Assembly: GCF_027923555.1 (NCBI RefSeq)
Contig: NZ_AP025523.1
Coordinates: 2,484,484 to 2,548,483, forward strand
DNA: 64,000 bases
Reading direction: 5' to 3'
Origin: Vulcanimicrobium alpinum
Lineage (GTDB): Bacteria; Vulcanimicrobiota; Vulcanimicrobiia; Vulcanimicrobiales; Vulcanimicrobiaceae
Shown here: in pieces, positions 8,652 to 61,156 of the stretch
How positions within the stretch are numbered: position 1 is the first letter of the stretch
How the letters are laid out: every line of letters starts with the position of its first letter
Notes under the pieces: model-generated
The model's input: the letters and a program-made list of their open reading frames with translations, nothing else
Told to the model about the DNA's origin: nothing
Database searches by the model: none
Translations under genes and position numbers: made by a program

Positions 8652-9526
8652 CAAAATGGCAACCCGACCAGCCGGCGGATCGTGCCGAACAGCAATCCGA
8701 AGCCGTCGACCTTCTTCTTCGTTTCCGGGATGAAGATCACGTCATCGGGCGCGAGGACGAGATCCGAGCTCAAGTCGCCGTCCTGCAGCGCGTGGTACAG
8801 GTTTACCTCCGTAACCGTCGGCGGGCCGCCTGGTGCGCGCCTCGTCACGCGGATATGATTGAGATCGGCGTTGGCGCTCGAACTGTTGCCGGCTTTCGCA
8901 ACGGCGATCGCGAGGCGATCGCCTTCGTTCACATCGACATCGCCGGGATGGTCAACCGCCCCCAGTACGCGCACGCGAATCGTCGCGGGCGCCGGCACGT
9001 ACACTGCCGAGGCGTTCTGTAGGCGGACATCCGAAGTGACGTCTCCCTTTCGCAACAGCCCCTCGAGAGAAACTTCATGGATCTGATCGCCGACGGAGAC
9101 GCGCGCGACCGGGAGCGGCCCGCTGGTGGGGCCAATCCCTCCTGCCGCTGCCAAAGCATCACTCAGGCGACCGCCGGGCTGAATCGTGTAGCGTCCGGGG
9201 GCCTTCACGTTTCCGAGAACGAGCACCGTGTAGGCGGCCTCGGTCTTGATCCCGACCGCGACGTTGGGCTCGCGCACGTACCGCTTGAGGCTGGCGGCTA
9301 TCAGCGTCGAGGCCTGCGTGGTCGACATCCCGCGCACGACGAGCCGGCCGACGAGCGGGAGGCTGATGCTCCCGTCGGGTGCGACGGTGAGCTGCTGCGA
9401 GAGCGCCGTCTCGCCGAACACCTGCACGTCGAGCACGTCGCCGGGCGCGATGGCGGTATCGGCGAGCGCGCAGCGCGCACCGAGCAGGATGGTGAGCGCG
9501 AAAAGCGCGCTGATGAATCGTCGCAT
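8651..9526 (-). CDS. Polysaccharide export protein (Wza/SLBB family)
   Basis: Secreted export-channel component of 291 residues. It has a cleavable signal peptide (about 1-22), a Poly_export domain starting APGDVLDVQVFGE, then two SLBB-type ligand-binding segments (YTVLVLGNVKAPGRYTIQ and IRVRVLGAVDHPGDVDV). There is no lipobox cysteine (GARC lacks the consensus), so it may not be an outer-membrane lipoprotein like Wza of enterics. It is translationally coupled to the kinase gene downstream, and the pair would form the transport machinery of this locus. Confidence 0.88.
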   Translation of the reverse strand: MRRFISALFALTILLGARCALADTAIAPGDVLDVQVFGETALSQQLTVAPDGSISLPLVGRLVVRGMSTTQASTLIAASLKRYVREPNVAVGIKTEAAYTVLVLGNVKAPGRYTIQPGGRLSDALAAAGGIGPTSGPLPVARVSVGDQIHEVSLEGLLRKGDVTSDVRLQNASAVYVPAPATIRVRVLGAVDHPGDVDVNEGDRLAIAVAKAGNSSSANADLNHIRVTRRAPGGPPTVTEVNLYHALQDGDLSSDLVLAPDDVIFIPETKKKVDGFGLLFGTIRRLVGLPF

Positions 9527-9527
9527 G

Positions 9528-10454
9528 TTATCGTGCGTCTCCCGCGCCGCTGTAGACGAGCGTTCCTTCGATGTCGAGCCGCTCGTCGTAGGTGCGGGCG
9601 ACCGCTTCGGGGATCGGGCTGCCGTCGCTCATGCGGACGAAATCGCGCAGTGACGTGCCGGTCGGATGCGAGTCGTGGTTGGGCGCGCCACGGTGCGCGA
9701 CGACCGCTTCGAGGCTGATCGTGCGGAAGTCGACGCTCCAACGGCTCTCGCCGCTCGTGTTCGGGCACGTCGAGTGCAGCTGCGCCGCCGAGAACGCCAT
9801 GACGCCGCCCGGGCGCATCACGATGCGCATCTCGGGATCGAGATCGAGCTGCTCCAGCGCCTTGGGCTGGACCCGCGTATCGGAGCGGACGTGCTTGCGC
9901 GCTTCGGCGCGGCCCTCGGCGTTCCAGCGGTAGTAATCGAAGGCGTCCGAACCGTTGCGCACGGCGCGCGACCAGTACTGCGGATGAAACGCCATCCCCG
10001 CGCACGCGGCGTGGTCGTAGATCGGCAGCCACCAGTTGATCTGCGCCATCGGCGCCGAGTACCACGTGTCGCGGTGCGGATGATGCGCGTAGGCGACGCC
10101 GGAGGTGAGGTATCCGTTGCTCGTCGAGACGCGCATCCGCGGAACGTCGATGTACGTGTCGTCTTCGTCGAAGTCGAGTTCGCGCAGGATCCCGCGAATC
10201 GCGTCGCGGGAGCGCGGATCGTGGATGAACGATGACTTCAACGGCGCGAAGCGGTCGACGAACGCCTCGACCTCCATGAAATGCTGCGCGCGCCGAGGGT
10301 CGACGCCCTCGAACGCGTTCTCGATCGACGCACGGGCATGATTGACGAAGGCGAGCGTCGCGGGCGAGTGCGCGCGCACGACGATCGCGCCGTCGTACAC
10401 CGCTTCGATCATGCGATGCGCGTCGAACGCGGGATCGATGTACAAGGTGCTCAT
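9528..10454 (-). CDS. PhyH-like Fe(II)/2-oxoglutarate dioxygenase in the sugar cluster
   Basis: A 308-residue protein resembling the phytanoyl-CoA dioxygenase superfamily. The likely iron ligands are in HPHRDTWYSAP (HxD-like) and the distal His of QLHSTCPNTSGESRW, whose Arg would bind 2-oxoglutarate. The start is the ATG at 10454, overlapping the methyltransferase stop by four bases (ATGA). Its place between sugar C-methyltransferases and the export genes suggests it hydroxylates or otherwise oxidises a sugar or a glycan substituent. The substrate is not deducible from sequence. Confidence 0.7.
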   Translation of the reverse strand: MSTLYIDPAFDAHRMIEAVYDGAIVVRAHSPATLAFVNHARASIENAFEGVDPRRAQHFMEVEAFVDRFAPLKSSFIHDPRSRDAIRGILRELDFDEDDTYIDVPRMRVSTSNGYLTSGVAYAHHPHRDTWYSAPMAQINWWLPIYDHAACAGMAFHPQYWSRAVRNGSDAFDYYRWNAEGRAEARKHVRSDTRVQPKALEQLDLDPEMRIVMRPGGVMAFSAAQLHSTCPNTSGESRWSVDFRTISLEAVVAHRGAPNHDSHPTGTSLRDFVRMSDGSPIPEAVARTYDERLDIEGTLVYSGAGDAR

Positions 10455-11671
10455 CCGACTGCCTCCACCTGTGGCTTCAGGCCCATGGACGCCAACTGCG
10501 CGGTGATCTCGGAGACGTACGCCTCGTTCATGACCACGACGAGGTCGGGCGGCGCCGCGGTCAGCGACTCCGGCGCGCGGACTTGGATCCCCGTCGACGG
10601 CAGGAAACGCCCTTGCCGGTGCGGGTTGATATCGACAACCGCATCGACGAGTTCCGCGGTGCCGGTCTCGCTCAAAAAGGCGACGCATTTGGAACCCGAG
10701 CCCCACACCGCGACGCGTTCGCCGGCGTCCTTGGCGGCCCGGATGGTGTTGCTCCAGCGCCCCATCTCCGCCGAGACGCGCTCGGCGTAGCTCGCCGTGA
10801 GCGCGGCGAGCGCTTCGGCGTCCGCCTCGGAACCGCCGGCCGGCGCCGCGCCGTCCGGATTGATGCGTGCTTCGAGCATGACGTACTGGTCGCCGAAGGC
10901 GAGCCAAGCATCGTCGACCGTGAACCCGTTCTCGCGGAACAGCCGGGCGAGCGAATCGGTGGTGAAGTACGAGCAATGCTCGTAGTAGACGTCCCAGAAC
11001 GCGCCCTCGCGGAGCACGCGGCCGACGTCGGGGACTTCGAAGAAGATCCGCGCGTGCGGCGAGCCGGCGAGCGAAGCCCGCAGTGCGCGGACGAAGCCGC
11101 GCACGTCGGCGATATGTTCGAGCGTGTGGCGGCAGATCACCGCGTCGGCGTCGAGCAGGCCGGTCTCCTCGCCGAAGAACTCGCGGCGCAGCGTCAACTG
11201 AGTCCCGGTCCGCTGCCGCAGCCGGTCCGGCGCGATCGTCGGGTCGAGTCCGAGACCGGCGTTGCCGCCGCGTTCGCAGATCGCGACGAGGAAGTCGCCT
11301 TTCCCGCACCCGATCTCGACCACGCGTTTGCCTTGCAGTCCGAAGCGCTCGATGATGTCGTCGACGAGGCCGTCGGCGAACGCCGTGAACGTCGGCGAGA
11401 AGCTCTGCTGCTCTTCGTACGAGTCGTCGTAGCGAACCAGCGCCGGATCGAAGCGCGGGTTCTGAATGAAGCCGCAGGCGCGGCAGAACGCGAGTTCCAA
11501 GGCGCCGTTCGGCACCCGCAGCGCGTCGGCGCGCTCTTCGAAAACGCGCGCGTTGTTGACCGGGATCGCAGGCGAGCTGAAAAACGAACGCAGGTCGGCG
11601 CTGCCGCACGCGCGGCACGAGGCATCAACGGGGAGCGGCGACTCCGCCGCACGCATGTCGAGGGTATTCAT
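10451..11671 (-). CDS. SAM-dependent sugar C-methyltransferase, copy 1
   Basis: A 406-residue three-part methyltransferase of the TylCIII/NovU/EvaC type. The N-terminus carries a zinc-binding pair of motifs (CRACGSADL and FCRACGFIQN). The SAM-binding motif is VVEIGCGKGDFL (about residues 116-127), and the C-terminal C-methyltransferase domain includes VAVWGSGSKCVAFL. Such enzymes add a methyl branch to a nucleotide-linked keto-sugar. The ATG at 11671 shares a base with the stop of the second methyltransferase gene (TAATG). Confidence 0.82.
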   Translation of the reverse strand: MNTLDMRAAESPLPVDASCRACGSADLRSFFSSPAIPVNNARVFEERADALRVPNGALELAFCRACGFIQNPRFDPALVRYDDSYEEQQSFSPTFTAFADGLVDDIIERFGLQGKRVVEIGCGKGDFLVAICERGGNAGLGLDPTIAPDRLRQRTGTQLTLRREFFGEETGLLDADAVICRHTLEHIADVRGFVRALRASLAGSPHARIFFEVPDVGRVLREGAFWDVYYEHCSYFTTDSLARLFRENGFTVDDAWLAFGDQYVMLEARINPDGAAPAGGSEADAEALAALTASYAERVSAEMGRWSNTIRAAKDAGERVAVWGSGSKCVAFLSETGTAELVDAVVDINPHRQGRFLPSTGIQVRAPESLTAAPPDLVVVMNEAYVSEITAQLASMGLKPQVEAVG

Positions 11672-12897
11672 TAGACGATCTGCACTTCCGGGATCGGGAT
11701 GATGAAACGGCCGCCCTGTTCGCGGAACGCAGCTTCCTGCTGCATAATTTCATCCGCGAAGTTCCACGCCAGCAGCAGCAGGTAATCGGGCGGATCCTCG
11801 CGCAGGCGCCGCGCCGCGACGATCGGCAGGTGGTTGCCGCCCATGTAACGCCCTTCTTTATGCGCGTTCCGGTCGACGACGTAGTCGATCAGGTCGGTCC
11901 CGATCCCGACGTAGCTGCACAGGGTCGTCGCCTTCGCCGCAGCGCCGTAGGCCGCGATGCGTTCGCCCCGCGCGCGCAGCGACCGCAGCAGCGTACCGAG
12001 CTCGTCGCGGATCGCGGAGACGCGCTGCGCGAAGTCCGCATAGAACGACCGCTGATCCATCTTGGACGCGAATTCCTGAGCGATGAGCGCGTCGACCCGT
12101 TGACGGCGATCGTCGTGCTGCTCGACGAACAGGCGCAGCGAGCCGCCGTGGATCGCGAGCCGCTCGACATCGTTGAGAAAGAGCCCGTGGCGCTTGAACA
12201 GCTCGTCGAGCGCGCGCACGGAGAAGTAGCACAGATGCTGGTGGTAGATCGTGTCGAACTCGCACTTCGCAACCAGATCGGCGACGTAGGGTACCTCGAT
12301 CACCGCGACGCCTTCGCGCTTGAGCAGCACTTTGATCGCCGCGACGAAACCGTTGAGGTCGGGGACGTGCGCGAGCACGTTGTTCGCGAGGAACACGTCG
12401 GCGCGCACGCCGAGGCCGTCGCGAAGTTCGCGCGCCAGCTCGAGGTTGAAGAAGGTGTTGAGCGTCGGGATCCCGCGATCCGAGGCGACCTGCGCCGGAC
12501 CGCTCGCCGGGTCGACGCCGAGCACCGGGATGCCGGCGTCGGCGAACGTCGAGAGCATGTAGCCGTCGTTGCTCGCGGCCTCGACGACCATGCTGTGCGG
12601 GCCGAGATGCCGCGTGCTGATCAGCCGCCGCGCGCTCGAGCGGAAATGCTCCATCAGCTGCGACGATACCGACGAATAGTACGGATAGTCGCGGCAGAAC
12701 AGGATCTCCGGATCGACCGTCTCGGTGATCTGGGCCAGCGTGCAGCGCGGGCAGAAGGTCAACTCCAGCGGTGCTTTGAGCTCGGGTTCGGAAAGCTGTT
12801 CCAGCGTGAGCAGACCGTCGGCCAGCGGCGTCTCGCCCAGCGAGAGTACCGGGACGAGACCCTCGGCGTCGCAGGAGCGGCAGGTTGTCGCGGTCAT
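11671..12897 (-). CDS. SAM-dependent sugar C-methyltransferase, copy 2
   Basis: A 408-residue paralogue of the downstream gene, with the same build: zinc-binding N-terminus (CRSCDAEGL and [10 protein letters not shown]), SAM motif [12 protein letters not shown] and C-terminal [19 protein letters not shown]. The long upstream open frame is not homologous. The ATG at 12897 overlaps the epimerase stop (ATGA). Two consecutive C-methyltransferases suggest either two methyl branches or one acting on a sugar side chain. The product would be a branched CDP-sugar given the adjacent cytidylyltransferase. Confidence 0.85.
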
Positions 12898-13949
12898 GCG
12901 ATCGCTTTCTCGACGGATGGGTGCGCGGCGCTCACGCGCAGTTCGCTGTCGAGCACCCCGCGCTCCATCAGCATGCGCACGTGCGCGATGCGCTGGTACC
13001 GCTCGCCTTCGAAGTCGGCAGAACTGACGTGGTTCTGCGCGTACGCGTCGAGCAGTTGACCGACGCCGGCACGCACGTCCCAGGTGAGGCGGACGTCCGG
13101 GAACGTTGCCGCGAACTTGGAGCAGTCGACGCGGTAGTTGCGCGTGTCGGAGTCGGCGCCTTGCGCGAACGTCACCGTCGCGCCCGGAACCTCTTCGCCC
13201 ACGATCTGCGCGACCTCGCGGACGCGGTAGTTCTCCTCGGTCCGTCCGACGTTGAAGACCTCGTTGTGCACCTTCTCGCGCGGCGCCTCGATCGCGGCGA
13301 TGAATGCGCGCGAGACGTCCTCGACGTGGACGAGCGGGCGCCATGCGGTGCCGTCGCTCTTGAGAAACACGCGGCCGTCGGCGAAGGCGTGCGCGGCGAG
13401 GTTGTTCACGACCAGATCGAACCGCAGGCGCGGCGAGAGACCGTACACCGTGGCGTTCCGCAAGAACACCGGACTGAAGCCGTCGCCGGCGAGCTCCGCG
13501 ATCCAGCCTTCGGCGAGCACCTTCGAACGGCCGTAGGGCGTGACGGGACGCAGCTCCGAATGCTCGTCGAGCAGCTCTTGACCGCCGGCGCCGTAGTTGC
13601 TGCAGGACGAACTGTAGACGAAGCGCGGGACGCCCGCGAGCTGCGCTTTGCGCGCCAGGTCGAACGACGTGCGGCCGTTGATCGCGATCGTCAGTTCGGG
13701 ATCGAGATCGCCGAGCGGATCGTTCGAGAGCCCGGCGAGATGGATGATCGCGTCGAAGCCGTGCAGATCCGGCGGCTGGACGTCGCGCACGTCGAGCGCG
13801 AGGTTCGGGACGGTATGGTTGACCGCGCCGAAATCGCAGCGGCTGAAGATGTCGGTGTCGCAGCCGGTGACGTCGTGCCCGCGGGCGACGAGCAGCGGCG
13901 TCAGCACCGTTCCGATATATCCGAGATGGCCCGTGACCAGAACCCTCAC
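12894..13949 (-). CDS. NAD-dependent epimerase/dehydratase (nucleotide-sugar SDR)
   Basis: Extended short-chain dehydrogenase of 351 residues acting on a nucleotide sugar. The Rossmann motif GHLGYIG is at residues about 7-13, followed by [20 protein letters not shown] and the catalytic YGRSK. The start is the GTG at 13949 ([13 protein letters not shown]), overlapping the cytidylyltransferase stop as GTGA. The frame is open further upstream but not homologous. No separate CDP-glucose 4,6-dehydratase (RfbG) is in the window, so this enzyme may fill that role or act as a later epimerase or reductase. Confidence 0.85.
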
Positions 13950-28987: not shown

Positions 28988-30153
28988 AGCGGGATCACCG
29001 TCGGCGAGCCGATGCCGACCTGGAGTTGGAACACCGACGCTTTCAATCCGGCGATCGTCGGACGCGCGTCTTGGCAACCGCTGGGGCCGCCGAGCCGCTG
29101 GCACGTAATGCTCGTGATGCCGAGCTCCTTATAGTTCGTCGGTCCGCCGCCCCCGAATATTCCTTGAATGAACGTGTGCTTCGTGAAGCGGTGGGAGACG
29201 CCGTAGAGGAAGAGCGCGTCGTACTGCGGGTACGGGTCGATGGGATGATATTGCGGCAACCTCGACGGCTGGAAGAAGACCGTGGTTTTTTTATCGAAGC
29301 GGTATTCGACGTAGCCGAGCAAGAAAATCTGCGCGTGATTCGTCTGATTGACGCCGGCCGTGTGGACCAGCCACTGCGGCGCCGCCGTGATCGTCGCGAA
29401 CATCCGCGGCGTCGCGAGAAACGGCAGCGTCACAGGCAGGAGCCAAAACTGTTCCGTACGGGCATGCGCCTCCGTCGGGAAGCCGTTGAACTCGAACTTG
29501 ATGACGTCGTCGTTTCCGCCGATCGTCGCGGTGCGCGCGATGTACGTTGGTGAGATCACGATCGGCAGCACCTTGCCGCCGGGCATCCCAATGGTGATCA
29601 GGTTCTGATCGAGGACCGTCAGGATCTTGTTCTTCGTGACGTTGTCGACAAGGCCGGTGTTGGTCGTACCCAGCGACGCGCCGGGCAGGTTGGTGCCGGG
29701 TCCGGTGTAGCCTTGCAGATAGAGCGGGACATTCCGAAAGCTGAATCCGAGCGGCGTATCTTCGAACTCGAAGTAGCCGGCCTGGACGCGATTCGTATGC
29801 GAGAACGCGTATCCGAATCCGACGTCCATGCCGCCCGGAACGTTCGGCGTGTACTTGAGGTCGCCGTAGTCGTGCGTGAAGTGCACGTCCGCATTGTAGG
29901 TGAAGCCCTGCGGCAGCGAGGGCTTGTGGATCGGCGCCTGCGGGGTGCCGACCGGGTTCGCTTGAGCGACATCGGAGGGATCGAGTCGATCCCGGTCGCC
30001 GAGGAGTGCGCGCTGCAGGGTCGCATTGGCGGGAGCGAGGAGCCCGGCTTGAAGGGCGCTGGCCTCGCCCGCGTCCGCGCGAGCGGCGAGCGGCGCGAAG
30101 ACGATCGACGCGCACAGCAATGCGCCGACGACCGCCAACGGACGGTAAATCAT
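28984..30153 (-). CDS. Outer-membrane beta-barrel-like protein
   Basis: A 389-residue exported protein with a signal peptide (MIYRPLAVVGALLCASIVFA). It has many alternating, aromatic-rich strands such as VQAGYFEFEDTPLGFSF, GYVEYRFDKKTTVFFQPS and DALFLYGVSHRFTKHTFIQG. This pattern fits an outer-membrane barrel, possibly of the phenol MetA/transporter-like group. Start ATG at 30153. It heads a coupled group with the GDSL lipoprotein and the LolA-like protein. The transported or bound compound is unknown. Confidence 0.6.
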   Translation of the reverse strand: MIYRPLAVVGALLCASIVFAPLAARADAGEASALQAGLLAPANATLQRALLGDRDRLDPSDVAQANPVGTPQAPIHKPSLPQGFTYNADVHFTHDYGDLKYTPNVPGGMDVGFGYAFSHTNRVQAGYFEFEDTPLGFSFRNVPLYLQGYTGPGTNLPGASLGTTNTGLVDNVTKNKILTVLDQNLITIGMPGGKVLPIVISPTYIARTATIGGNDDVIKFEFNGFPTEAHARTEQFWLLPVTLPFLATPRMFATITAAPQWLVHTAGVNQTNHAQIFLLGYVEYRFDKKTTVFFQPSRLPQYHPIDPYPQYDALFLYGVSHRFTKHTFIQGIFGGGGPTNYKELGITSITCQRLGGPSGCQDARPTIAGLKASVFQLQVGIGSPTVIPL

Positions 30154-30244
30154 GCCGCGCGCTTGCGCGGGGTGGAGGAAGGTTCCTTCACAAAACGATA
30201 ATCTCCATGATCGGTTTCGCGGGTGGCCCGCCGGCCGGCGCGAA

Positions 30245-32140
30245 ATGACGCCCGCGATGTCGTTGCGTGCCGCCGTCGCATGGTTTCCATTCGTCGCCCT
30301 CGTCGGACAAGACGAAGCGAAGCTCGCACTGACGCTCGCCGCGATCGATCCGCGGATCGGCGGCGTCCTGCTCTCGGGTCCGAAGGGAACCGGGAAGACG
30401 ACGCTCGTGCGCAGCGCCGGCGAGCTGCTGCCGGTGCTCGAACGCGCGACCTGCGCGTACGGCTGCGATCCGCGCGGCTCGAGCCTGTGCGCGGAGTGCG
30501 CGGGGCGCGAAGCACGCGGCAAAGCGATCCCGGCCCGCAAGTCGCGCGGCACGATCGTCGAGCTCCCGTCGAACGCCCAACTCGACGACGTCGTCGGCGC
30601 GATCGACCTGCGCTCTGCGCTCGAACGCGGCGCGGTCACGTTCCGGCCCGGCCTGCTCGCTGCCGCCAACCGCAACGTCCTCTACGTCGACGAGATCAAT
30701 CTGCTCTCGGACGTCGTCGTCGACGCGCTGCTCGACGCGGCCGCGCAGGGCGTCGTGCACGTCAAGCGCGGACAGCACGCGATCGACTATCCGTCGCGGT
30801 TCGCCTTGGTCGGAACGATGAATCCCGAAGAGGGCGAACTCCGCCCGCAGATCACCGATCGCATCGGCCTGCGCGTCTTCGTCGCCGCCGCGTCCGATCC
30901 GGCGGAGCGCCGCGAGATCTACCGCCGCAACGCGGCGTTCACGCGCGATCCGCACGCCTTCGTCACGGCGCACAAGAAAGCGACCGACACCTACCGGCGG
31001 CGTCTTGCGAAGGCGATCGCGCTGCTCCCCGGCGTCGTCGTCTCCGACGACGCGGAGCGCGTCGCGATCGAAGCGGTAACGCGGTTGGGAATCGACAGCC
31101 ATCGCACGGAGATCGTCGCGCTCACCGCCGCCGCCGCGCATGCGGCGTGGCACGGACGCACGACGGCGACGGCCGACGACGTCGCGGTGGTGTTTCCGCT
31201 CGCGGCGCGTCTGCGGCGCAGCCGTCTGCGCGTCGAGGCGCTCTCCGAACATCTCGCGGAAGACGCCGCGATCGCGCAGGCGCTGGAGGCGACGGCCGGC
31301 GAGAACGATGCGAGCGCGGCGCAGAACGACGCGCTCTCGGGCGGGACGACGACGATGGTCTCGCCGGCGCTGACCGCGCGCGAACCGGCGAAAGCCCGCC
31401 CGCAGCGCGAACGCGAAGGCGACAGCGTCGCAACCGCACCGCTCGCCTCCGGCGGACGCATCGACGTCCCGGCGACGCTGCTCGACCGCGGCGTCGCGGC
31501 GCGCGCAGGGATCGCTCCCGAACCGAAGGAGCGCGTCGACGTGACGACGCCGGCGCGGCTGACCGTGCTCGTCGTCGACGCCTCGCTCTCGACGCGCGAG
31601 TCGGCCGCGGCGGTGAAAGCGGCCGGCCGCGAACTGCTGCGCCCGGTCTATACGGAACGCGAACGCGCGGCGCTGGTCTCGTGCTGGGGCCCGTTCGCCG
31701 AGATCGTCGTCGACGAGAACACCGGGCGCAACGTCGACCTCGTCGCCGCGCGGCTGGAAGAACTCGAGCCCGGCGACGTGCGCGCGCTCACTCCGCTCCC
31801 GGGCGCGCTCGAACACGTGCGCCGCATCGCGGACCGTTTCCGCCGCGCGAATCCTGGCGGCACCGTCGACGTCGCCGTCTTCAGCGACGGCCGCGCCAAC
31901 GTGCCGCTCGGCGATCCCGCGGACGTCGCGAACGCGCTGGCGGCGGGCGATGCGCGCGCGCTGGGCGAGACGGCGGCTGAACAATGCCGCGCGCTCGCCG
32001 GCGTGATCGGTACGCGCGCGCACCTCACATGCGTCAACCTCGACGCCTACGAAGCGCACCCGCTGATGCGCGAGATCGCCGAGATCGGACGCGGCCGATA
32101 CTTCGCTCTCGCCGACGTCGTCGCGCGCATCTCCTCTTAA
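30245..32140 (+). CDS. bchD: Fused magnesium-chelatase I/D subunit (ChlID/BchID-type)
   Basis: A 631-residue AAA+ plus VWA protein, so BchI- and BchD-like parts are in one chain. Walker A GPKGTGKTT is at residues about 45-53 and Walker B is LYVDEINLLSD. A Cys cluster CAYGC...LCAEC follows the P-loop, as in fused cobalt/magnesium chelatase ATPases. After an acidic, Gln/Ala-rich linker comes the VWA domain with MIDAS motif DASLSTRES and FSDGRANVP. The presence of bchH 1.3 kb downstream and bchL in the window favours Mg insertion into protoporphyrin over Co insertion. The ATG at 30245 is preferred; another ATG is at 30257. A separate bchI elsewhere is possible. Confidence 0.82.
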   Translation: MTPAMSLRAAVAWFPFVALVGQDEAKLALTLAAIDPRIGGVLLSGPKGTGKTTLVRSAGELLPVLERATCAYGCDPRGSSLCAECAGREARGKAIPARKSRGTIVELPSNAQLDDVVGAIDLRSALERGAVTFRPGLLAAANRNVLYVDEINLLSDVVVDALLDAAAQGVVHVKRGQHAIDYPSRFALVGTMNPEEGELRPQITDRIGLRVFVAAASDPAERREIYRRNAAFTRDPHAFVTAHKKATDTYRRRLAKAIALLPGVVVSDDAERVAIEAVTRLGIDSHRTEIVALTAAAAHAAWHGRTTATADDVAVVFPLAARLRRSRLRVEALSEHLAEDAAIAQALEATAGENDASAAQNDALSGGTTTMVSPALTAREPAKARPQREREGDSVATAPLASGGRIDVPATLLDRGVAARAGIAPEPKERVDVTTPARLTVLVVDASLSTRESAAAVKAAGRELLRPVYTERERAALVSCWGPFAEIVVDENTGRNVDLVAARLEELEPGDVRALTPLPGALEHVRRIADRFRRANPGGTVDVAVFSDGRANVPLGDPADVANALAAGDARALGETAAEQCRALAGVIGTRAHLTCVNLDAYEAHPLMREIAEIGRGRYFALADVVARISS

Positions 32141-33472: not shown

Positions 33473-36400
33473 ATGAAGGTCGTCGGCTATTCGTCGTGGG
33501 CTCCCGATGAGCGCGCCAATGCGATGCGGCTCGCGTTCAAGACGCTCCGCGAGCGGACCGGCGAGGACTGGACGCTCGAGCACTTCGGCGCTTCCGACTT
33601 CAACGATCCAGCGGCGCTGGGCCGGTTGCGCGAGGCGATTCGCGGCTGCGACATCCTGGTCGGCTGGCAGTCGATGACGATCGACACGGTCGAACGCCTC
33701 GCCCTGCTGCTCACCGAGATGGAACGCGCGGGCGAGCTCCCCCGCCAGAAGATCCTCTGGTACGACATCCCCGACGCCCGCTTGCAGCGGCTCATGTTCT
33801 CGTCGCTCGGCTTCACGTTCGACATGAACAAGTCGAACCCGATGCGCGAGATGTCGATGGCGATCAAGCGCTTTCAGGCGAAGGCGAAGGGCGAGACGAT
33901 CGACGTCATGTGGGAGGCGCGCCAGGGCTTCCTCGGCATGCAGAAGATGGTCGGCGCCGCGCCGCTGATGGCGAAGCTGCTCAAGAAACCGGTCTTCAAG
34001 TCGCTGGTGCTCGTCGGCTACTGGAACAACCGTTCCGTCAAGAACGTCGGCAACATGTTCCTCTATCTCATGCAGCACTTCATGGGCCGCAACGTCGGCG
34101 AGGTCGAACTGCCGGAGAAGGTCGAGAACGAAGGGATCTATCATCCGGCGCACGCCGGACTGTTCCAGAAGCCCGAAGAGTATCTCGCCTGGTACGAGCC
34201 GTGGTTCGCGCAGACGTACGGCAAGAAACCGTGGGACCGCGTCGGCTTCGTGACCCACGACCTCTTCCTCCCCGACTGGAACCACCCGACGCTCGACGCC
34301 GCGATCGGCGCCTGGGAGCAGCGCGGCGTCGGGGTGATCTGCTCGATGACCGCGGTCTTCAACGCGCACGTGGTCTCGCGCGGACACCTCATCGACAAGG
34401 CCGGGAAGCCGCTCGTCAACGCCCTCTACCACAACGTGCCGCTGTATCTGGCCGGCTCGATGTTCGCCGGCAACCCCGACGCGTCGATCGCATTCATCCA
34501 CGACCTGGGCGACCCGCGCGTCTACACCTCGCCGGTGAACGCCGCGATGTCGCGCGCCGATCTCGCCGCGTCGAAGTTCGGCGTCGCGTCGCTGGAGTAC
34601 ATCGGCAACGTCGTCACGCCGGAGACCGAAGGGATCCAGCCGTTACCGCCGGTCTGCTCGCGCGAGCATACCAGCGAGGACGTGAGCGCGCTCGAACCGA
34701 TCCCCGACCGCATCGATCTGGTCGCCGACACGACGACCCGCTGGCTGCGGCTCGCGTCGACGCCGAACGCCGAGAAGAAGCTCTCCTTCTTCGTCTACAA
34801 CTTTCCGCCGGGCCCGGGCAACGTCGGCGTCGCGTACTTTCTCGACGTCGCCGGCTCGCTGCGCGAAGCGCTCCTCGCGCTCAAAGCCGACGGGTACGCC
34901 GTCGGGGACACGCTCCCCGAGTCGGACGCCTCGATGTCGCACGAACTGCAAGAGATGTACGCCGGGCGGCGGACGATCGGTGCCGTCTCGTCGGCGGAGA
35001 TCCGCGACTGGGTCCACGATCTGCCGCGCCAGTACGAAGTGCTCTTCTACGATGTGTGGGGGCAGCCGGCACCGACGATCCCGATCAAAGGCCTGCGCTT
35101 CGGCAACATCCTCGTGCTGCTGCAGGACATGCGCGGAATGGAAGACCTCTCGGTGATCCACGACAAGCAGGCGCCGCCGTCTCCGTGGCTCATCGCATCG
35201 TATCGTTACGCGACGCGGCGTTTCCAGGCCGACGCGATGGTGCACGTCGGAACGCACGGGCTGGTCGAGTGGGCGAAGGGCAAGGAGTGGTGCCCGGTCG
35301 CCGGCGATTACCCGGAATACCTCATCGACGGCACGCCCCACGTCTACCTGTTCAACGTTCTCGATCCGGTCGAAGCATCGATCGCGCGGCGCCGCTCGTA
35401 CGCGACGATCGTCTCGCACCTGTGCCCGCCCTTGCGCGCGACCGAGGGCAGCGAGGATCTGCGCGCGCTGCACCGCCTCGTGCACGACTACTACAACACT
35501 CTCGCCGAGGACGCCGAGAAGAAAGCCGACCTCGCGGAGGAGATCGCGCATCTCGTCGAACGCAGCGGGTTGCGCATCGAAACGGCGGGCGATACGCGCC
35601 TGGCCGTCGGTGACGACCAGCGCGCCTACGTCGCGCGCGTCCACGACGAGCTCGTCTCGCTCGAAGGCGAGTTCTCGCCGGCCGGCCAGCACGTCTTCGG
35701 CCGCAACCTCTCCGACGAAGACCGCGAGACGACGTTCAACGCCTGCCTCGAAGCCGGCGACGTCGACCTGTTCCGGCTGATCGCATCGTGCTACGGTGTC
35801 GACTACGACCGGCTGGCCCGCGACCCCGAAGGCCGCGATGCCGACGGCGCGTACCACCACGATCTGCTCGACGAGATCCGCGACGTCGGCCGCGATCTGA
35901 TCGCCGCCGAGGTGATGCGCCCGAGCGGCGCGGCCGGCCGCGGCGCGATGACGGGGCTGTTGCAGGCGCGCACGGTCGGTTCGCGCCGCCTGCAGAAATC
36001 GCCGTACGACGTCGAGCAGCTCGAAGCGTTCGTCGAACGCGCGCGCGTGCTGTGGCACGAGCTCGGGCGCGTCGGGGAGGCGGAGAAGCGCGGCTTGCTG
36101 CAGGCGCTCGCAGGACGGTACCTCGAGCCGTCGCCTGGCGGTGAGATCGTCGGCGACTGGAGCGTGCTCCCCACCGGGCGCAACATGGCGTCGACCGACG
36201 TACGGATGCTGCCGCGCGAAGCGGCGCAGCGCAAAGCGAAGCGCACCGTCGAACAGGTCCTTGAAGCGGCGCTCGCCGAGCGCGGGCACTATCCCGAAGC
36301 GGTCGGCGTCGTGCTGTGGGGCTCGGAGATCCTCGAGTCGGAAGGCGTCGGGATCGCGCAGGCGCTCGACCTGCTCGGCGCACGCGTCGCGAAGGACAAG

Positions 36401-37387
36401 TTCGGCCGCGCCGAACGCGCCGAGCTGATCTCGCTGGATGAACTCGGCCGGCCGCGCATCGACATCGTCGCGAGCGCCTCGACCGTCTTCAAGAACACCT
36501 TCCCCGGCGCGGTGCGCATCATCCACGAGGCCGCGCAGCTCGCCGCCGACGCGAACGAGCCGCCGGAGTGGAACTACGTGCGCAAGCACAACGCCGAAAT
36601 GGCGGCGCACGGGCTCGATCAGGTGCTGCTGCGCGCGCGCGTCTTCGGGATGGCCGAGGACGCGTTCATGGGTCAGGTCGGCGCGATGCTCGATCAAGGC
36701 ACCTACGACGACTACAAGGACATCGGCAACGCCTGGCTCAGCGACAACGGCAACGCGTTCATCCCGACCTTCGCCGCGATCCAAGTGACGCCGGCGCACG
36801 AGATTCAAAAATATCTGGTCGCCAAGGTCGAGGTGATCCAGCAGCCGCTGGTCGCGATGGGCGCCGGCGGTCCGGTGAAGGAAGACATGTTCGCGTCGTT
36901 CACCTCGGCGTTCGGCGCCGCGAAGCGGACGATGGGGCAGGACGACACGATGATCGTCGTCAGCGACCTCACGCGGCGCGAGCCGGTCGTGCGCAACTTC
37001 CGCAACGTGGTGGTGAACGGCGTCCTCAACCGCTACCACTCGAAGGACTGGCGCGACCGGATGCTCGCGCACGGCTACTCCGGGGTGCTCGAGTTCGGCG
37101 ACGTGATGAAAGCGATGCGCTCCACCGAAGCGGCGCTCGGCAACACGATCTCGCCGGAACTCTGGAAGCGGACGGTCGAGGTGACGCTCGGCGAGTGGGA
37201 ACGGATCGCCGATGCAAATCCGCACAAGACGCGCGAGATCGGCGAGGTGCTGCTCGACACCCGCAAGCGCGGAATGTGGGAAGACGCCGAACTCGAGCAG
37301 GCGCTCAAGAACAAACTCAACGAACTCGACGCGGACGTCGAACTCGCGACGTACCGCAAGCAGATCGCCGGCGCGGCCGGCGACTGA
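33473..37387 (+). CDS. bchH: Magnesium chelatase subunit H (BchH)
   Basis: The large porphyrin-binding subunit that, with the I/D ATPase, inserts Mg2+ into protoporphyrin IX as the first committed step of (bacterio)chlorophyll synthesis. Its 1304 residues match BchH (1200-1350). It has the N-terminal domain of chelatase H (DILVGWQSMTIDTVERLALL), the motif ENEGIYHPAHAGLF, and the CobN/Mg-chelatase core (VHVGTHGLVEWAKGKEW, VVLWGSEILESEGVGIAQAL). CobN of cobalamin synthesis is homologous, but the N-terminal domain plus nearby bchID and bchL favour BchH. The DUF2721 gene starts three bases after its stop. Confidence 0.87.
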   Translation: MKVVGYSSWAPDERANAMRLAFKTLRERTGEDWTLEHFGASDFNDPAALGRLREAIRGCDILVGWQSMTIDTVERLALLLTEMERAGELPRQKILWYDIPDARLQRLMFSSLGFTFDMNKSNPMREMSMAIKRFQAKAKGETIDVMWEARQGFLGMQKMVGAAPLMAKLLKKPVFKSLVLVGYWNNRSVKNVGNMFLYLMQHFMGRNVGEVELPEKVENEGIYHPAHAGLFQKPEEYLAWYEPWFAQTYGKKPWDRVGFVTHDLFLPDWNHPTLDAAIGAWEQRGVGVICSMTAVFNAHVVSRGHLIDKAGKPLVNALYHNVPLYLAGSMFAGNPDASIAFIHDLGDPRVYTSPVNAAMSRADLAASKFGVASLEYIGNVVTPETEGIQPLPPVCSREHTSEDVSALEPIPDRIDLVADTTTRWLRLASTPNAEKKLSFFVYNFPPGPGNVGVAYFLDVAGSLREALLALKADGYAVGDTLPESDASMSHELQEMYAGRRTIGAVSSAEIRDWVHDLPRQYEVLFYDVWGQPAPTIPIKGLRFGNILVLLQDMRGMEDLSVIHDKQAPPSPWLIASYRYATRRFQADAMVHVGTHGLVEWAKGKEWCPVAGDYPEYLIDGTPHVYLFNVLDPVEASIARRRSYATIVSHLCPPLRATEGSEDLRALHRLVHDYYNTLAEDAEKKADLAEEIAHLVERSGLRIETAGDTRLAVGDDQRAYVARVHDELVSLEGEFSPAGQHVFGRNLSDEDRETTFNACLEAGDVDLFRLIASCYGVDYDRLARDPEGRDADGAYHHDLLDEIRDVGRDLIAAEVMRPSGAAGRGAMTGLLQARTVGSRRLQKSPYDVEQLEAFVERARVLWHELGRVGEAEKRGLLQALAGRYLEPSPGGEIVGDWSVLPTGRNMASTDVRMLPREAAQRKAKRTVEQVLEAALAERGHYPEAVGVVLWGSEILESEGVGIAQALDLLGARVAKDKFGRAERAELISLDELGRPRIDIVASASTVFKNTFPGAVRIIHEAAQLAADANEPPEWNYVRKHNAEMAAHGLDQVLLRARVFGMAEDAFMGQVGAMLDQGTYDDYKDIGNAWLSDNGNAFIPTFAAIQVTPAHEIQKYLVAKVEVIQQPLVAMGAGGPVKEDMFASFTSAFGAAKRTMGQDDTMIVVSDLTRREPVVRNFRNVVVNGVLNRYHSKDWRDRMLAHGYSGVLEFGDVMKAMRSTEAALGNTISPELWKRTVEVTLGEWERIADANPHKTREIGEVLLDTRKRGMWEDAELEQALKNKLNELDADVELATYRKQIAGAAGD

Positions 37388-38587: not shown

Positions 38588-38665
38588 CGAGTTGATGTTG
38601 GCGTGACGGCGTTTTTCGCGTATTATAAGAGCAAGTCTCCTCATACCTTGGTGAGGTTGCGGCCG

Positions 38666-39748
38666 ATGCGGACTCATGATGAGCAGCGTGCATCCGTTTG
38701 GACGACGTTGCAGCCGGAAGACACCGTGCCCGGCGATCATCCGTTGCGCCCGATGCGCGTGATGGTCAACGAAATTCTGCGCGAACTCTCGCCGGAGTTT
38801 TCCAAGCTCTACTCCCGACGGGGCCGGCCATCGATCGCGCCGGAGAAGCTGCTGCGAGCCTTGCTGTTGCAAATGTTCTACTCGATCCGCAGCGAGCCGA
38901 TGCTGCTGGAGCAGTTGCGTTACAATTTGCTCTTTCGTTGGTTCGTGGGCTTGAGCATGGACGACAAGATCTGGGACCCCTCGACGTTCAGCAAGAACCG
39001 CGATCGGTTCTTGAATGGCGAAATCTCCGAGCGGTTCTTCGCCGCCGTGGTCGAGCGGGCGCGTGCCGACGAACTGCTCTCGAACGAGCATTTCACCGTC
39101 GATGGGACGCTAATCGAGGCGTGGGCCAGCCACAAGAGCTTTCGGCCCAAGTCGGACGACGAACCGCCGACCTCGAGCGGCGGTCGCAACGAGGGCGTGA
39201 ACTTTCGTGGCCGGCCGCGCAGCAACGAGACGCACGTCTCGAGTACCGATCCGGACGCGCGGTTGTACCGCAAGAGCAGCGGCGCGCCGGCGATTCTCGG
39301 CTATCTCGGACATGCTCTGATGGAGAATCGCAACGGCTTGATCGTCGGCGTGAAGACCACTCGCGCGACCGGGATCGCCGAACGCGAAGCAGCGCTGGAA
39401 TTGATTCGCGGGGTCAGCGGAAGCAACCGAATCACGCTCGGCGCCGACAAGGCGTACGATACCAAAGACTTTGTCGAGGCGTTGCGAGCGCTCAACGTGA
39501 CGCCGCACGTTGCTCAAAATACGACCCGTCGCCGCAGCGCGATCGACCGCCGAACCGTCCGCCATCCGGGCTACACGGTGAGTCAACGCAGGCGCAAGTT
39601 GATCGAGGAGAGCTTCGGGTGGGGCAAGACGATCGGCCGATTGCGCAAGGTGCATTTCCGCGGGCTTGATCTGGTCGGCGACATTGTGCGCTGGACGGCC
39701 GCGGCGTACAACTTGATCAGGATACGCAATCTGAGGGCCGCGACATGA
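38666..39748 (+). CDS. IS5-family transposase
   Basis: DDE transposase of 360 residues from the ATG at 38666 (MRTHDEQRASVWTTL); the frame opens at 38603 as well. An N-terminal DUF772-type DNA-binding region (RRGRPSIAPEKLLRALLLQM, SMDDKIWDPSTFSKNR) is followed by the catalytic core: Asp in HFTVDGTLIEAWAS, Asp in TLGADKAYDTKDF and Glu in RRKLIEESFGWGKTI. The gene is undamaged, in keeping with an element able to move. Confidence 0.93.
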   Translation: MRTHDEQRASVWTTLQPEDTVPGDHPLRPMRVMVNEILRELSPEFSKLYSRRGRPSIAPEKLLRALLLQMFYSIRSEPMLLEQLRYNLLFRWFVGLSMDDKIWDPSTFSKNRDRFLNGEISERFFAAVVERARADELLSNEHFTVDGTLIEAWASHKSFRPKSDDEPPTSSGGRNEGVNFRGRPRSNETHVSSTDPDARLYRKSSGAPAILGYLGHALMENRNGLIVGVKTTRATGIAEREAALELIRGVSGSNRITLGADKAYDTKDFVEALRALNVTPHVAQNTTRRRSAIDRRTVRHPGYTVSQRRRKLIEESFGWGKTIGRLRKVHFRGLDLVGDIVRWTAAAYNLIRIRNLRAAT

Positions 39749-58401: not shown

Positions 58402-59199
58402 GTGTACCTGACGACGTACGCGCGCTACTGGCGGATCAACCTGCTCACCATGCTCGAGTACCGGGCGAACTTCCTGATGTGGTTCGGGTTCACGATCGTC
58501 TATCACGGCACCGCGATCGCGGCGCTCTGGATCACGCTGCGCAACTTTCCGTCGATCAACGGCTGGAACTTTCGCGACACCGCCTTCATGTACGGCCTGT
58601 GGATGCTCGGACACGGACTGCACAACACGTTCTTCTTCACCGTCGGCGGCGTCCCCGAATTCGTGCGCGAAGGTCGCTTCGACCGGTTCCTCGTCCGTCC
58701 GCTCGATCCGCTCTTTCAGGCGCTGACGGTGCCGCAGCAGATCTGGCCCGACGAACTGATCCTCGCGATCGTGTACTTCTGCGTCGTCACGGTCTACGCC
58801 GGCGTCCACGTCGACTGGCTCTTCATCGCGTACGTCCCGTTCGTCGCGCTCGGCGGGGCGCTGATCGATTTCGGAATCAACCTCGCGATCGCGACGGCGT
58901 CGTTCTGGTTCACGCGCATCGACTCGCTGCGCTGGGTGTTCATGTCGCTCGAACAGGAGTTCTCGCGCTATCCGATCTCGATCTATCAGCGCGGCGTGCG
59001 CCTCGTGCTCGCGTTCGTGCTCCCGTTCGCGTTCATGAACTACTTTCCGGCGACGTTTCTGCTGCACAAAAGCGAGACCGGGCTCTCGCTCAACCCGGCC
59101 GTCGGCCTGCTCACCCCCGTCGTCGGAGCGGCGTGCTTCGCGATCGCCTACCTCTTCTGGCGGGTCGGAATCGACCGGTACCAGGGCACCGGAAGTTGA
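58402..59199 (+). CDS. ABC-2 exporter permease (DUF990 family), copy 2
   Basis: Inner-membrane protein of 265 residues, about six spans, with YARYWRINLLTMLEYRANFL at the N-terminus and REGRFDRFLVRPLDPLFQAL as the conserved cytoplasmic segment of ABC2_membrane_6. It is the expected second permease for the ATPase at 50599 and the permease at 52161, but lies 5.4 kb from the latter. Start GTG at 58402. Confidence 0.85.
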   Translation: MYLTTYARYWRINLLTMLEYRANFLMWFGFTIVYHGTAIAALWITLRNFPSINGWNFRDTAFMYGLWMLGHGLHNTFFFTVGGVPEFVREGRFDRFLVRPLDPLFQALTVPQQIWPDELILAIVYFCVVTVYAGVHVDWLFIAYVPFVALGGALIDFGINLAIATASFWFTRIDSLRWVFMSLEQEFSRYPISIYQRGVRLVLAFVLPFAFMNYFPATFLLHKSETGLSLNPAVGLLTPVVGAACFAIAYLFWRVGIDRYQGTGS

Positions 59200-59229: not shown

Positions 59230-59553
59230 ATGAGCCGTGCGTTCACCAAGGAGCGCGACGATGCGCCCCAACCCGAGCCCGTGCTGCGCAAGCGCGTCGA
59301 GGAGCTCCCGGCCCGGCCCGACGATCTGCGCGTGGTCGGCCCGGGCGCCCACGTCGTCGTGGAAGGCGTCGATGCCGAGCCCCGCACGTTCACGATCGCC
59401 GGTTACGACGAGACGGACCTTGCCGCGCAGCGCATCGGGATCGACTCACCGCTGGCCCAGGCGCTGCTCGGCAAGCGAGCCGGCAACCGGGTCGTCTGGC
59501 ATCGTCCGGCCGGCGACCGCACCCTGCGGATCGCGCGGGTCGAGTACGACTGA
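59230..59553 (+). CDS. Small protein with GreA/GreB C-terminal domain
   Basis: A 107-residue protein whose C-terminal half (GIDSPLAQALLGKRAGNRVV then WHRPAGDRTLRIARVEYD) is the FKBP-like C-domain of GreA/GreB, also found in Rnk. The coiled-coil of Gre factors that reaches the RNA polymerase active site is absent; the short N-terminus is charged. It may bind RNA polymerase near the secondary channel as Rnk does. Start ATG at 59230. Confidence 0.8.
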   Translation: MSRAFTKERDDAPQPEPVLRKRVEELPARPDDLRVVGPGAHVVVEGVDAEPRTFTIAGYDETDLAAQRIGIDSPLAQALLGKRAGNRVVWHRPAGDRTLRIARVEYD

Positions 59554-59607: not shown

Positions 59608-60723
59608 ATGGCCTGGCTGACCGCGACGTACCTGATCGACGCCGCCCCCGACGAAATCGAGGCGCGGGCCTCCGCGCTCGCGATCGAGCAGAGCGTCGAG
59701 TGCCCGCTAGCGGCGATCGGCGACCAGCGCGTCCTGCATGAGATCGTCGGGCGCGTCGCCGGGATCGAACCGGCCGGCGACGGCCGCTATCGCGTCGACG
59801 TCGGGCTCGCCGTCGAGACGACGGGCGGCGAGCCGGCGCAATTGATGAACATGATCTTCGGGAACTGCTCGTTGTGGGAGCACGTGCGCTTCGTCGACGT
59901 GACGCTGCCCGAGCCGCTGCTCGCGCGCTTCCCCGGACCGCGGCACGGGATCGCAGGGATCCGGGCGCTGCTCGACGCGCCGCAGCGCGCGATGACGAGC
60001 ACCGCCGTCAAGCCGCAGGGGCTCCCCGTCGCCGAACTCGCGCGATTGTGCAAGACCTTCGCGCTGGGTGGCGTCGACATCGTGAAAGACGACCACGGGA
60101 TCGCGAATCAAACCTATTCGCCGTTCGACGAACGCGTGCGGGCCTGCCAGCGCGCGGTGCTCGAAGCGGTGGAGACGACCGGCAAGCCGGCGTTCTATGC
60201 GCCGAGCCTGTCGGGGACGCCGCGCGTTCTGCGGGAGCGCGCGCGGCTCGCCCGCGATCTGGGCGTGCGCGTCGTACTCGTCGCGCCGATGCTGATCGGC
60301 CTTCCGGCGTTCGCCGATCTGGTCGACGAATTCCCCGAGTTCGTCTACCTCGCGCATCCCTCCGCGGCCGGCGGCCGGATCGATCCGGTGCTGATCTTCG
60401 GCAAACTGTTTCGCCTCTTCGGCGCCGATGCCGTGATCTTCACCAACTATGGCGGACGCTTCGCGTATCCGCGCGAGTCGTGCGCCGCGCTGGCCGCTGC
60501 GGCGCGCGCGCCTTGGGGCACGCTCGCTCCGGCGCTCCCGGTCCCGGCCGGCGGGATGCTGCTCGAACGCGTCGACGAATTGCTCGAGTTCTACGGGGAC
60601 GATACGATGATGCTGATCGGCGGCAACCTGCTGATCGCGCGCGACGCGCTCTTGGAGCGGACGCGCGAGTACGTTGCGAAGGTCGAGGGTCATGGACGCA
60701 CGCACGTCGCGCTTCACGCGTAA
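59608..60723 (+). CDS. RuBisCO-like protein (form IV), likely methylthio-ribulose phosphate isomerase
   Basis: A 371-residue RuBisCO large-chain homologue, much shorter than true RuBisCO (about 470). The catalytic Lys of loop 1 remains in TSTAVKPQGLP, but the second Lys is Gln. The carbamylation motif reads GGVDIVKDDHGIANQ: Lys and Asp are kept, Glu204 is His. The loop-6 Lys region reads NYGGRF, and the Ser379 position is Ala (VPAGGM). These changes rule out CO2 fixation. The overlapping downstream cupin matches the gene pair of R. rubrum, where the RuBisCO-like protein isomerises 5-methylthioribulose 1-phosphate. Other form-IV roles, such as D-apionate breakdown, are possible. Confidence 0.85.
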   Translation: MAWLTATYLIDAAPDEIEARASALAIEQSVECPLAAIGDQRVLHEIVGRVAGIEPAGDGRYRVDVGLAVETTGGEPAQLMNMIFGNCSLWEHVRFVDVTLPEPLLARFPGPRHGIAGIRALLDAPQRAMTSTAVKPQGLPVAELARLCKTFALGGVDIVKDDHGIANQTYSPFDERVRACQRAVLEAVETTGKPAFYAPSLSGTPRVLRERARLARDLGVRVVLVAPMLIGLPAFADLVDEFPEFVYLAHPSAAGGRIDPVLIFGKLFRLFGADAVIFTNYGGRFAYPRESCAALAAAARAPWGTLAPALPVPAGGMLLERVDELLEFYGDDTMMLIGGNLLIARDALLERTREYVAKVEGHGRTHVALHA

Positions 60724-61156
60724 GTTCCGCGCCGGCGGGGCGTTCGGCTGGGACGACGTCGACGTGCTCGCGTACAAAGAAGCCGGCGGCGCGCCGTTCC
60801 GCGCGGTGACGCGACAGGTGCTCTTCGAGGAGGCCGAGCAGGGCTGCCAATTACGCTACTTCGAGGTCGCGCCCGGCGGCCACACGACGCTCGAGCGGCA
60901 CGAGCACGTGCACGCGGTGCTCGTCCTGCGAGGCCGCGGCGCGGCACTCATCGGCGACGAGGTGCGCGAGATCGGCGAACACGATCTGTGCCGCATCCCG
61001 CCGATGACGTGGCATCAGTTCCGCGCCGCCGATGACGCGCCGCTCGGATTCTTGTGCCTGGTCAGCTCGGAGCGCGATCGCCCGCAGCTTCCCTCCGACG
61101 CCGATCTCGCGGCGCTCCGCACCGACCCCGCGGTCGCCGCGTTCCTTCGCATCTAG
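60692..61156 (+). CDS. Cupin, likely methylthio-xylulose phosphate methylsulfurylase
   Basis: Single-domain cupin of 154 residues with the metal-binding motif RHEHVHAVLVLRGRG and the second motif PPMTWHQFRAADDAPLG. It begins at ATG 60692, inside the last 32 bases of the RuBisCO-like gene, preceded by GAGGG, so the two are translationally coupled. In R. rubrum the equivalent cupin converts 1-methylthioxylulose 5-phosphate into 1-deoxyxylulose 5-phosphate and methanethiol. That role is inferred from context; sequence alone shows only a metal-binding cupin. Confidence 0.75.
   Translation: MDARTSRFTRKFRAGGAFGWDDVDVLAYKEAGGAPFRAVTRQVLFEEAEQGCQLRYFEVAPGGHTTLERHEHVHAVLVLRGRGAALIGDEVREIGEHDLCRIPPMTWHQFRAADDAPLGFLCLVSSERDRPQLPSDADLAALRTDPAVAAFLRI

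Follow-up and report, generated by a model that had tools for sequence, protein, structure and literature searches.

The window analysed here, a stretch of 64,000 nucleotides, corresponds to positions 2484484-2548483 of the single-contig genome (3,508,363 bases) of the Antarctic bacterium Vulcanimicrobium alpinum, whose strain WC8-2 is the first cultured member of Eremiobacterota and has a circular chromosome (PMC9758169). On its plus strand, a full-length gene for a RuBisCO-like protein (RLP) occupies positions 59608-60723 (371 aa, ATG start; Pfam RuBisCO_large, E 1.4e-21), and a cupin gene follows at 60692-61156 (154 aa, ATG at 60692; Pfam Cupin_2, E 4.3e-12); the 3' end of the former and the 5' end of the latter share the 32 bases at 60692-60723, just as the original prediction had described. 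Two further plus-strand genes lie upstream of the pair, and both probably stand outside the pathway discussed below: an ABC-2 type transporter permease (58402-59199; Pfam PF06182), a conserved neighbour that is 82-86% identical upstream of the RLP gene in non-phototrophic congeners, and a protein with a GreA/GreB C-terminal domain (59230-59553; Pfam GreA_GreB), which is kept in or near the locus across the genus and is encoded downstream of the RLP gene in four congeners.

When the window RLP was compared with the PDB by phmmer, the top match was 3qfw (370 bits, 51.4% identity), which we take to be an R. palustris RLP, as the PDB name gives no organism; MtnW-like structures scored at most 133 bits. 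Identity was 33-34% to MtnW and 26-28% to RLPs of the Photo type. In a maximum-likelihood tree of 40 rows, from which the R. rubrum RLP sequence was left out, the window RLP and 3qfw fell together within a 28-row clade (support 100/99) and, nested in it, a 19-row clade (support 100/99), apart from MtnW, Photo and true RuBisCO. The 28-row clade is defined by the metal-site motif KDDH, found in all 28 members, and all 12 rows outside it, consisting of MtnW, Photo, the B. fungorum RLP and forms I and III, carry KDDE. Three other assignments were considered and rejected, namely MtnW (118.5 bits against a cut-off of 513.6 and 159 against 409, together with the KDDH motif and a separate clade), the 3-oxo-isoapionate-4-phosphate decarboxylase OiaX (74.6 bits against the NCBIfam equivalog cut-off of 700) and the Photo-type RLPs such as R. 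palustris RLP2 and that of C. tepidum (26-28% identity, separate clade).

The loss of residues needed for CO2 fixation, on which the original prediction was built, is borne out in nearly every particular. The KDDE of RuBisCO, MtnW and Photo RLPs is replaced by K160-D161-D162-H163 (codons at 60085-60096, plus strand), Ser379 is replaced by Ala in the segment PAGGM, and the lysine that can be carbamylated is retained along with its Asp. Only the substitution of the second Lys by Gln needs rewording: the window RLP reads VKPQGL where RuBisCO has TKPKLGL, and because this stretch lacks one residue relative to RuBisCO, the alignment decides whether K177 counts as replaced by Gln or as missing. Further RuBisCO residues are changed as well (H327 to Ile, K334 to Arg and R295 to Pro). 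The R. palustris member of the KDDH group, RLP1, has been established as a 5-methylthioribulose-1-phosphate 1,3-isomerase by assay and knockout, and the step of its cupin was demonstrated by the same means (PMC5893883). Since KDDH marks this assayed group, the residue losses are a signature of the group and not signs of decay, and the product of 59608-60723 is predicted to be a 5-methylthioribulose-1-phosphate 1,3-isomerase of the DeepYkr/KDDH clade.

Several more distant RLPs of the KDDH type (34-42% identity) were encountered directly after a split transketolase, whose N- and C-terminal halves are encoded by separate genes, and not in front of a cupin (L022 5960-9071, L070 8484-11583 and L071 7656-10651); their hosts are Trueperaceae as well as deep lineages of the phylum. 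In another genome (G113, L061), the RLP gene and a divergently placed RuBisCO large-subunit-like gene lie about 1.5 kb apart (9483-10631 and 12058-13506).

The cupin points in the same direction. Its best match in the PDB was 3jzv (E 1.2e-53, 59.0% identity), followed by 3kgz (53.2%), which is presumably the R. palustris cupin. The PDB record of 3jzv names Rru_A2000, the cupin-type 1-methylthioxylulose-5-phosphate sulfurylase of R. rubrum (PMC4958253). All of the RLP-linked cupins were recovered with 3jzv, 3kgz and 3ibm in one clade of 12 rows (support 99/91), in which a 9-row clade (99/93) unites 3jzv and 3kgz with RLP-linked cupins; the cupins of the phylum that do not adjoin an RLP gene fall outside the 12-row clade. 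The metal-ligand positions E68, H70, H72 and H108, as well as C122, are invariant across the clade. The product of 60692-61156 is thus predicted, by kinship, to be a 1-methylthioxylulose-5-phosphate methylsulfurylase.

The identical 32-base overlap of the two genes recurs in palsa_1478 (L002) and in a second relative (G066, L066), at protein identities of 75-80%. RLP and cupin genes that overlap or lie no more than 20 bases apart were also found in G060, Rhodovulum sp. PH10, Rhodovulum strictum, an actinobacterial MAG, an Ectothiorhodospiraceae MAG and Bacterium HR33; an RLP gene followed by an overlapping or nearly abutting cupin gene is thereby seen in alphaproteobacterial, gammaproteobacterial and actinobacterial records in addition to Bacterium HR33. 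Because the same overlap is found in two more species and the pairing recurs across several phyla, the association exceeds chance, and it is likely that the overlap couples the translation of RLP and cupin.

All of the known steps of the methylthioadenosine (MTA)-isoprenoid shunt are encoded in V. alpinum. In genome coordinates, mtnP, the MTA phosphorylase gene for which the original prediction had called for a search, lies at 668288-668998 (TIGR01694, 299.6 bits; cut-off 274.85) and mtnA at 1225891-1226805 (TIGR00512, 365.7 bits; cut-off 279), and two copies of metY, encoding O-acetylhomoserine sulfhydrylase, lie at 2680307-2681554 and 1578778-1580025 (both over the cut-off); RLP and cupin complete the set. 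The prediction of R. rubrum-type shunt enzymes is well supported, both proteins being of the same kind as those of R. rubrum and R. palustris. The genome also contains dxs (1143883-1145733), by which the shunt is rejected as the sole source of 1-deoxyxylulose-5-phosphate (DXP). Glutathione is the thiol co-substrate of the R. rubrum methylsulfurylase, and the ATP-grasp domain of glutathione synthetase (PF02955) was not found in the V. alpinum genome in a search whose control worked; according to a review, the thiol co-substrate is expected to differ among bacteria.

The original prediction had further expected mtnBCD to be missing and the shunt to replace the canonical pathway, as it does in R. 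rubrum, and had named a complete standard salvage pathway as a finding that would refute it. Neither expectation held, as mtnC (2150560-2151237), mtnD (2151306-2151791) and mtnB (2151821-2152381) are clustered on the same strand, each over its curated cut-off, and complete the canonical methionine-salvage branch. No Rfam riboswitch match was found near these genes or near the RLP-cupin pair. We take the joint presence of mtnBCD and the shunt genes to mean that two branches coexist, and it does not disprove the activities of RLP and cupin. With mtnBCD complete, salvage does not depend on the shunt; this has no bearing on catalysis by RLP and cupin, since in R. palustris, too, two routes of salvage start from one shared intermediate (PMC5893883).

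We consider it probable that RLP and cupin form a translationally coupled pair of the MTA-isoprenoid shunt, which would act as an oxygen-independent side branch for MTA disposal and sulfur recovery. The sequences themselves show which genes are present, how they relate to characterised enzymes, which residues their products carry and how the two genes overlap; activities, fluxes and conditions of use in this scheme are inferred. MTA would arise from S-adenosylmethionine, chiefly through polyamine synthesis; MtnP would cleave it with phosphate, and MtnA would isomerise the product to 5-methylthioribulose-1-phosphate. From this putative branch point, the oxygen-requiring MtnB-MtnC-MtnD route would lead in one direction and the shunt in the other: RLP would shift the carbonyl group (1,3-isomerisation) to give 1-methylthioxylulose-5-phosphate, from which the cupin, with a cellular thiol, would remove the methylthio group to yield DXP and methanethiol. 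The methanethiol could then be returned to methionine by MetY, and Dxs would stay the main source of DXP. Because the RLP-cupin branch can run without the oxygen that MtnD requires (PMC4958253, PMC6302742), the most likely role of the shunt is that of an oxygen-independent alternative.

Two characterised systems can be set beside this scheme. Like V. alpinum, R. rubrum has its RLP (Rru_A1998) and cupin (Rru_A2000) together and possesses mtnP, mtnA and metY (PMC4958253), and the two cupins are 59% identical, as judged from 3jzv. R. rubrum, however, lacks the classical salvage pathway (PMC6302742), which is complete in V. alpinum; the 32-base gene overlap and the failure to find the GshB domain in V. 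alpinum are further differences. In R. palustris, the genes for RLP1 (RPA2169) and the cupin (RPA2170) are adjacent, as in V. alpinum, whereas the second route from the intermediate is a DHAP route instead of mtnBCD (PMC5893883). The motifs KDDH, KPQ and PAGG are common to RLP1 and the V. alpinum RLP, which belong to sister clades in the tree. The V. alpinum proteins are 51% (RLP, to 3qfw) and 53% (cupin, to 3kgz) identical to the structures that we attribute to R. palustris. The two characterised species are mutually only 53% (RLP) and 56% (cupin) identical (PMC5893883). To the RLP gene, the same one that the genome paper reported as a type IV 'deep' RLP of unknown role (PMC9758169), our analysis assigns a concrete and testable function in the first cultured strain of Eremiobacterota; it also extends the shunt to the phylum Vulcanimicrobiota (Eremiobacterota), in a combination with complete oxygen-dependent salvage that is not described in the shunt literature cited here.

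The original prediction had gone on to propose that the shunt, through DXP, feeds carotenoid and phytyl-tail synthesis in an organism with bacteriochlorophyll genes. The setting of the gene makes this proposal tempting: the genome paper places the RLP gene between bchNBGP and bchL (PMC9758169), pufLM lies about 26 kb downstream of it, and the bchH gene, about 22 kb away, is within the window at 33473-37387, close to a gene for a BchI/BchD-like protein, perhaps a fusion (30152-32140). Both Bch homologues are divergent and well under their curated cut-offs, and an IS5-family transposase gene (38603-39748) lies downstream of bchH. A text search of the genome paper for methionine, isoprenoid or salvage returned zero mentions (PMC9758169). 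Across 70 genomes of the family, however, two have both RLP and pufLM, 11 have RLP only and four have pufLM only (Fisher p 0.31); that is, pufLM is present in only two of the 13 RLP-bearing genomes (V. alpinum and G117) and four of the six pufLM genomes are without RLP. The gene order upstream of RLP is, moreover, kept in congeners without pufLM, in which the RLP gene occupies the same position after acyl-CoA dehydrogenase, redoxin, pirin, AlkA-like and ABC-2 genes. The RLP gene is therefore part of an ancestral locus and not of the photosynthesis cluster, and a photosynthesis-linked function of RLP is rejected on distribution and synteny. This removes the association with phototrophy as evidence, and pigment synthesis might still use the RLP product; a dedicated supply of DXP for pigments is nevertheless very improbable, considering also that the genome has its own dxs and that polyamine-derived MTA would presumably cap the DXP yield.

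Two other accounts concern RLP itself, and both draw on congeners without the cupin. Each of the seven genus members sampled from the phylum carries RLP, mtnB and mtnD, and five of the seven are without cupin, a pattern that would suit an RLP acting as DK-MTP-1-phosphate enolase in the canonical pathway, the role of MtnW, with the cupin being incidental. Such a role is hardly credible, as mtnC, which performs that step, adjoins mtnB and mtnD in all seven genomes, and as the MtnW scores are far below the cut-offs and MtnW itself lies outside the clade of the window RLP (100/99) and retains KDDE. The same five congeners bear on the second account, which gives the KDDH RLP of this genus a different substrate or sink that does without the cupin, and treats the cupin itself as a remnant or as an addition peculiar to a lineage. 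Among genus members, V. alpinum, G066 and G121 (palsa_1478) carry the cupin and G119 a fragment of it, and a methylsulfurylase-type cupin is absent genome-wide from G026, G077, G091, G096 and G102 (RLP loci L065, L067-L069 and L008). These five nonetheless keep a full-length KDDH RLP with a dN/dS of 0.20-0.30, as compared with 0.22-0.30 in cupin-bearing members, and their RLP is thus under purifying selection. A constrained RLP without the cupin may have a use for which no such cupin is needed, and the distant KDDH RLPs beside split transketolase genes could be viewed in the same way; either another enzyme takes the RLP product in the cupin-less congeners or RLP has a second use. The recurrence of cupin coupling to KDDH RLPs in several phyla weighs against this second account, which we regard as unlikely for the pair in V. 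alpinum, and the MTA-isoprenoid shunt is the reading that we prefer.

Beyond the RLP-linked kind, a search for the cupin in 118 genomes of the phylum produced matches in 74, mostly a single homologue of 33-51% identity that is not linked to RLP. In the family of V. alpinum (f1), this unlinked cupin is usually encoded near glutaredoxin and EVE-type genes; at 11 loci (L095, L100, L102-L108, L110 and L111), a cupin of about 40% identity lies in such a conserved glutaredoxin/EVE-type neighbourhood, often with a rhodanese gene. When the 70 genomes of the family were scored for the cupin and mtnBCD, 45 had the cupin only, 19 had mtnBCD only, two had both and four had neither (Fisher 2.5e-11, with kinship ignored); among those at least 90% complete, the corresponding counts, again ignoring kinship, were 35, 16, two and one. 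The two genomes with both are V. alpinum and G066, and each has a cupin linked to RLP. In a Dxs tree, from which G117 was left out after failing its motif check, mtnBCD changes state seven times; among independent pairs, the cupin goes opposite to mtnBCD in about five of six and in none does it change in the same direction (sign test p ~0.06).

Most of the cupin-bearing genomes have mtnP and mtnA and are without RLP. Together, these observations suggest, short of proof, a part in MTA salvage for the unlinked cupin as well, in which case it would need a different partner in most of the genomes concerned. A survey of other bacteria likewise found a few genomes with the methylsulfurylase but without the isomerase (PMC10663253). 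A candidate isomerase was sought beside mtnA and mtnP in the cupin-bearing genomes without RLP, and these neighbourhoods, as read from the sequences, hold riboflavin, purine and DNA-replication genes, with no candidate among them. We propose, tentatively and as a possibility on which we would place less than even weight, that the unlinked cupin of Vulcanimicrobiota (Eremiobacterota) is a core enzyme of an undescribed, RLP-free route of MTA salvage that has been exchanged with mtnBCD on several occasions; the mutual exclusion of cupin and mtnBCD across the family points to where the unknown salvage enzyme may be sought. Separately, two genomes assigned to different families, G044 and G052 (L134 and L185), share an identical Dxs, a sign that one of these MAGs may have been misbinned.
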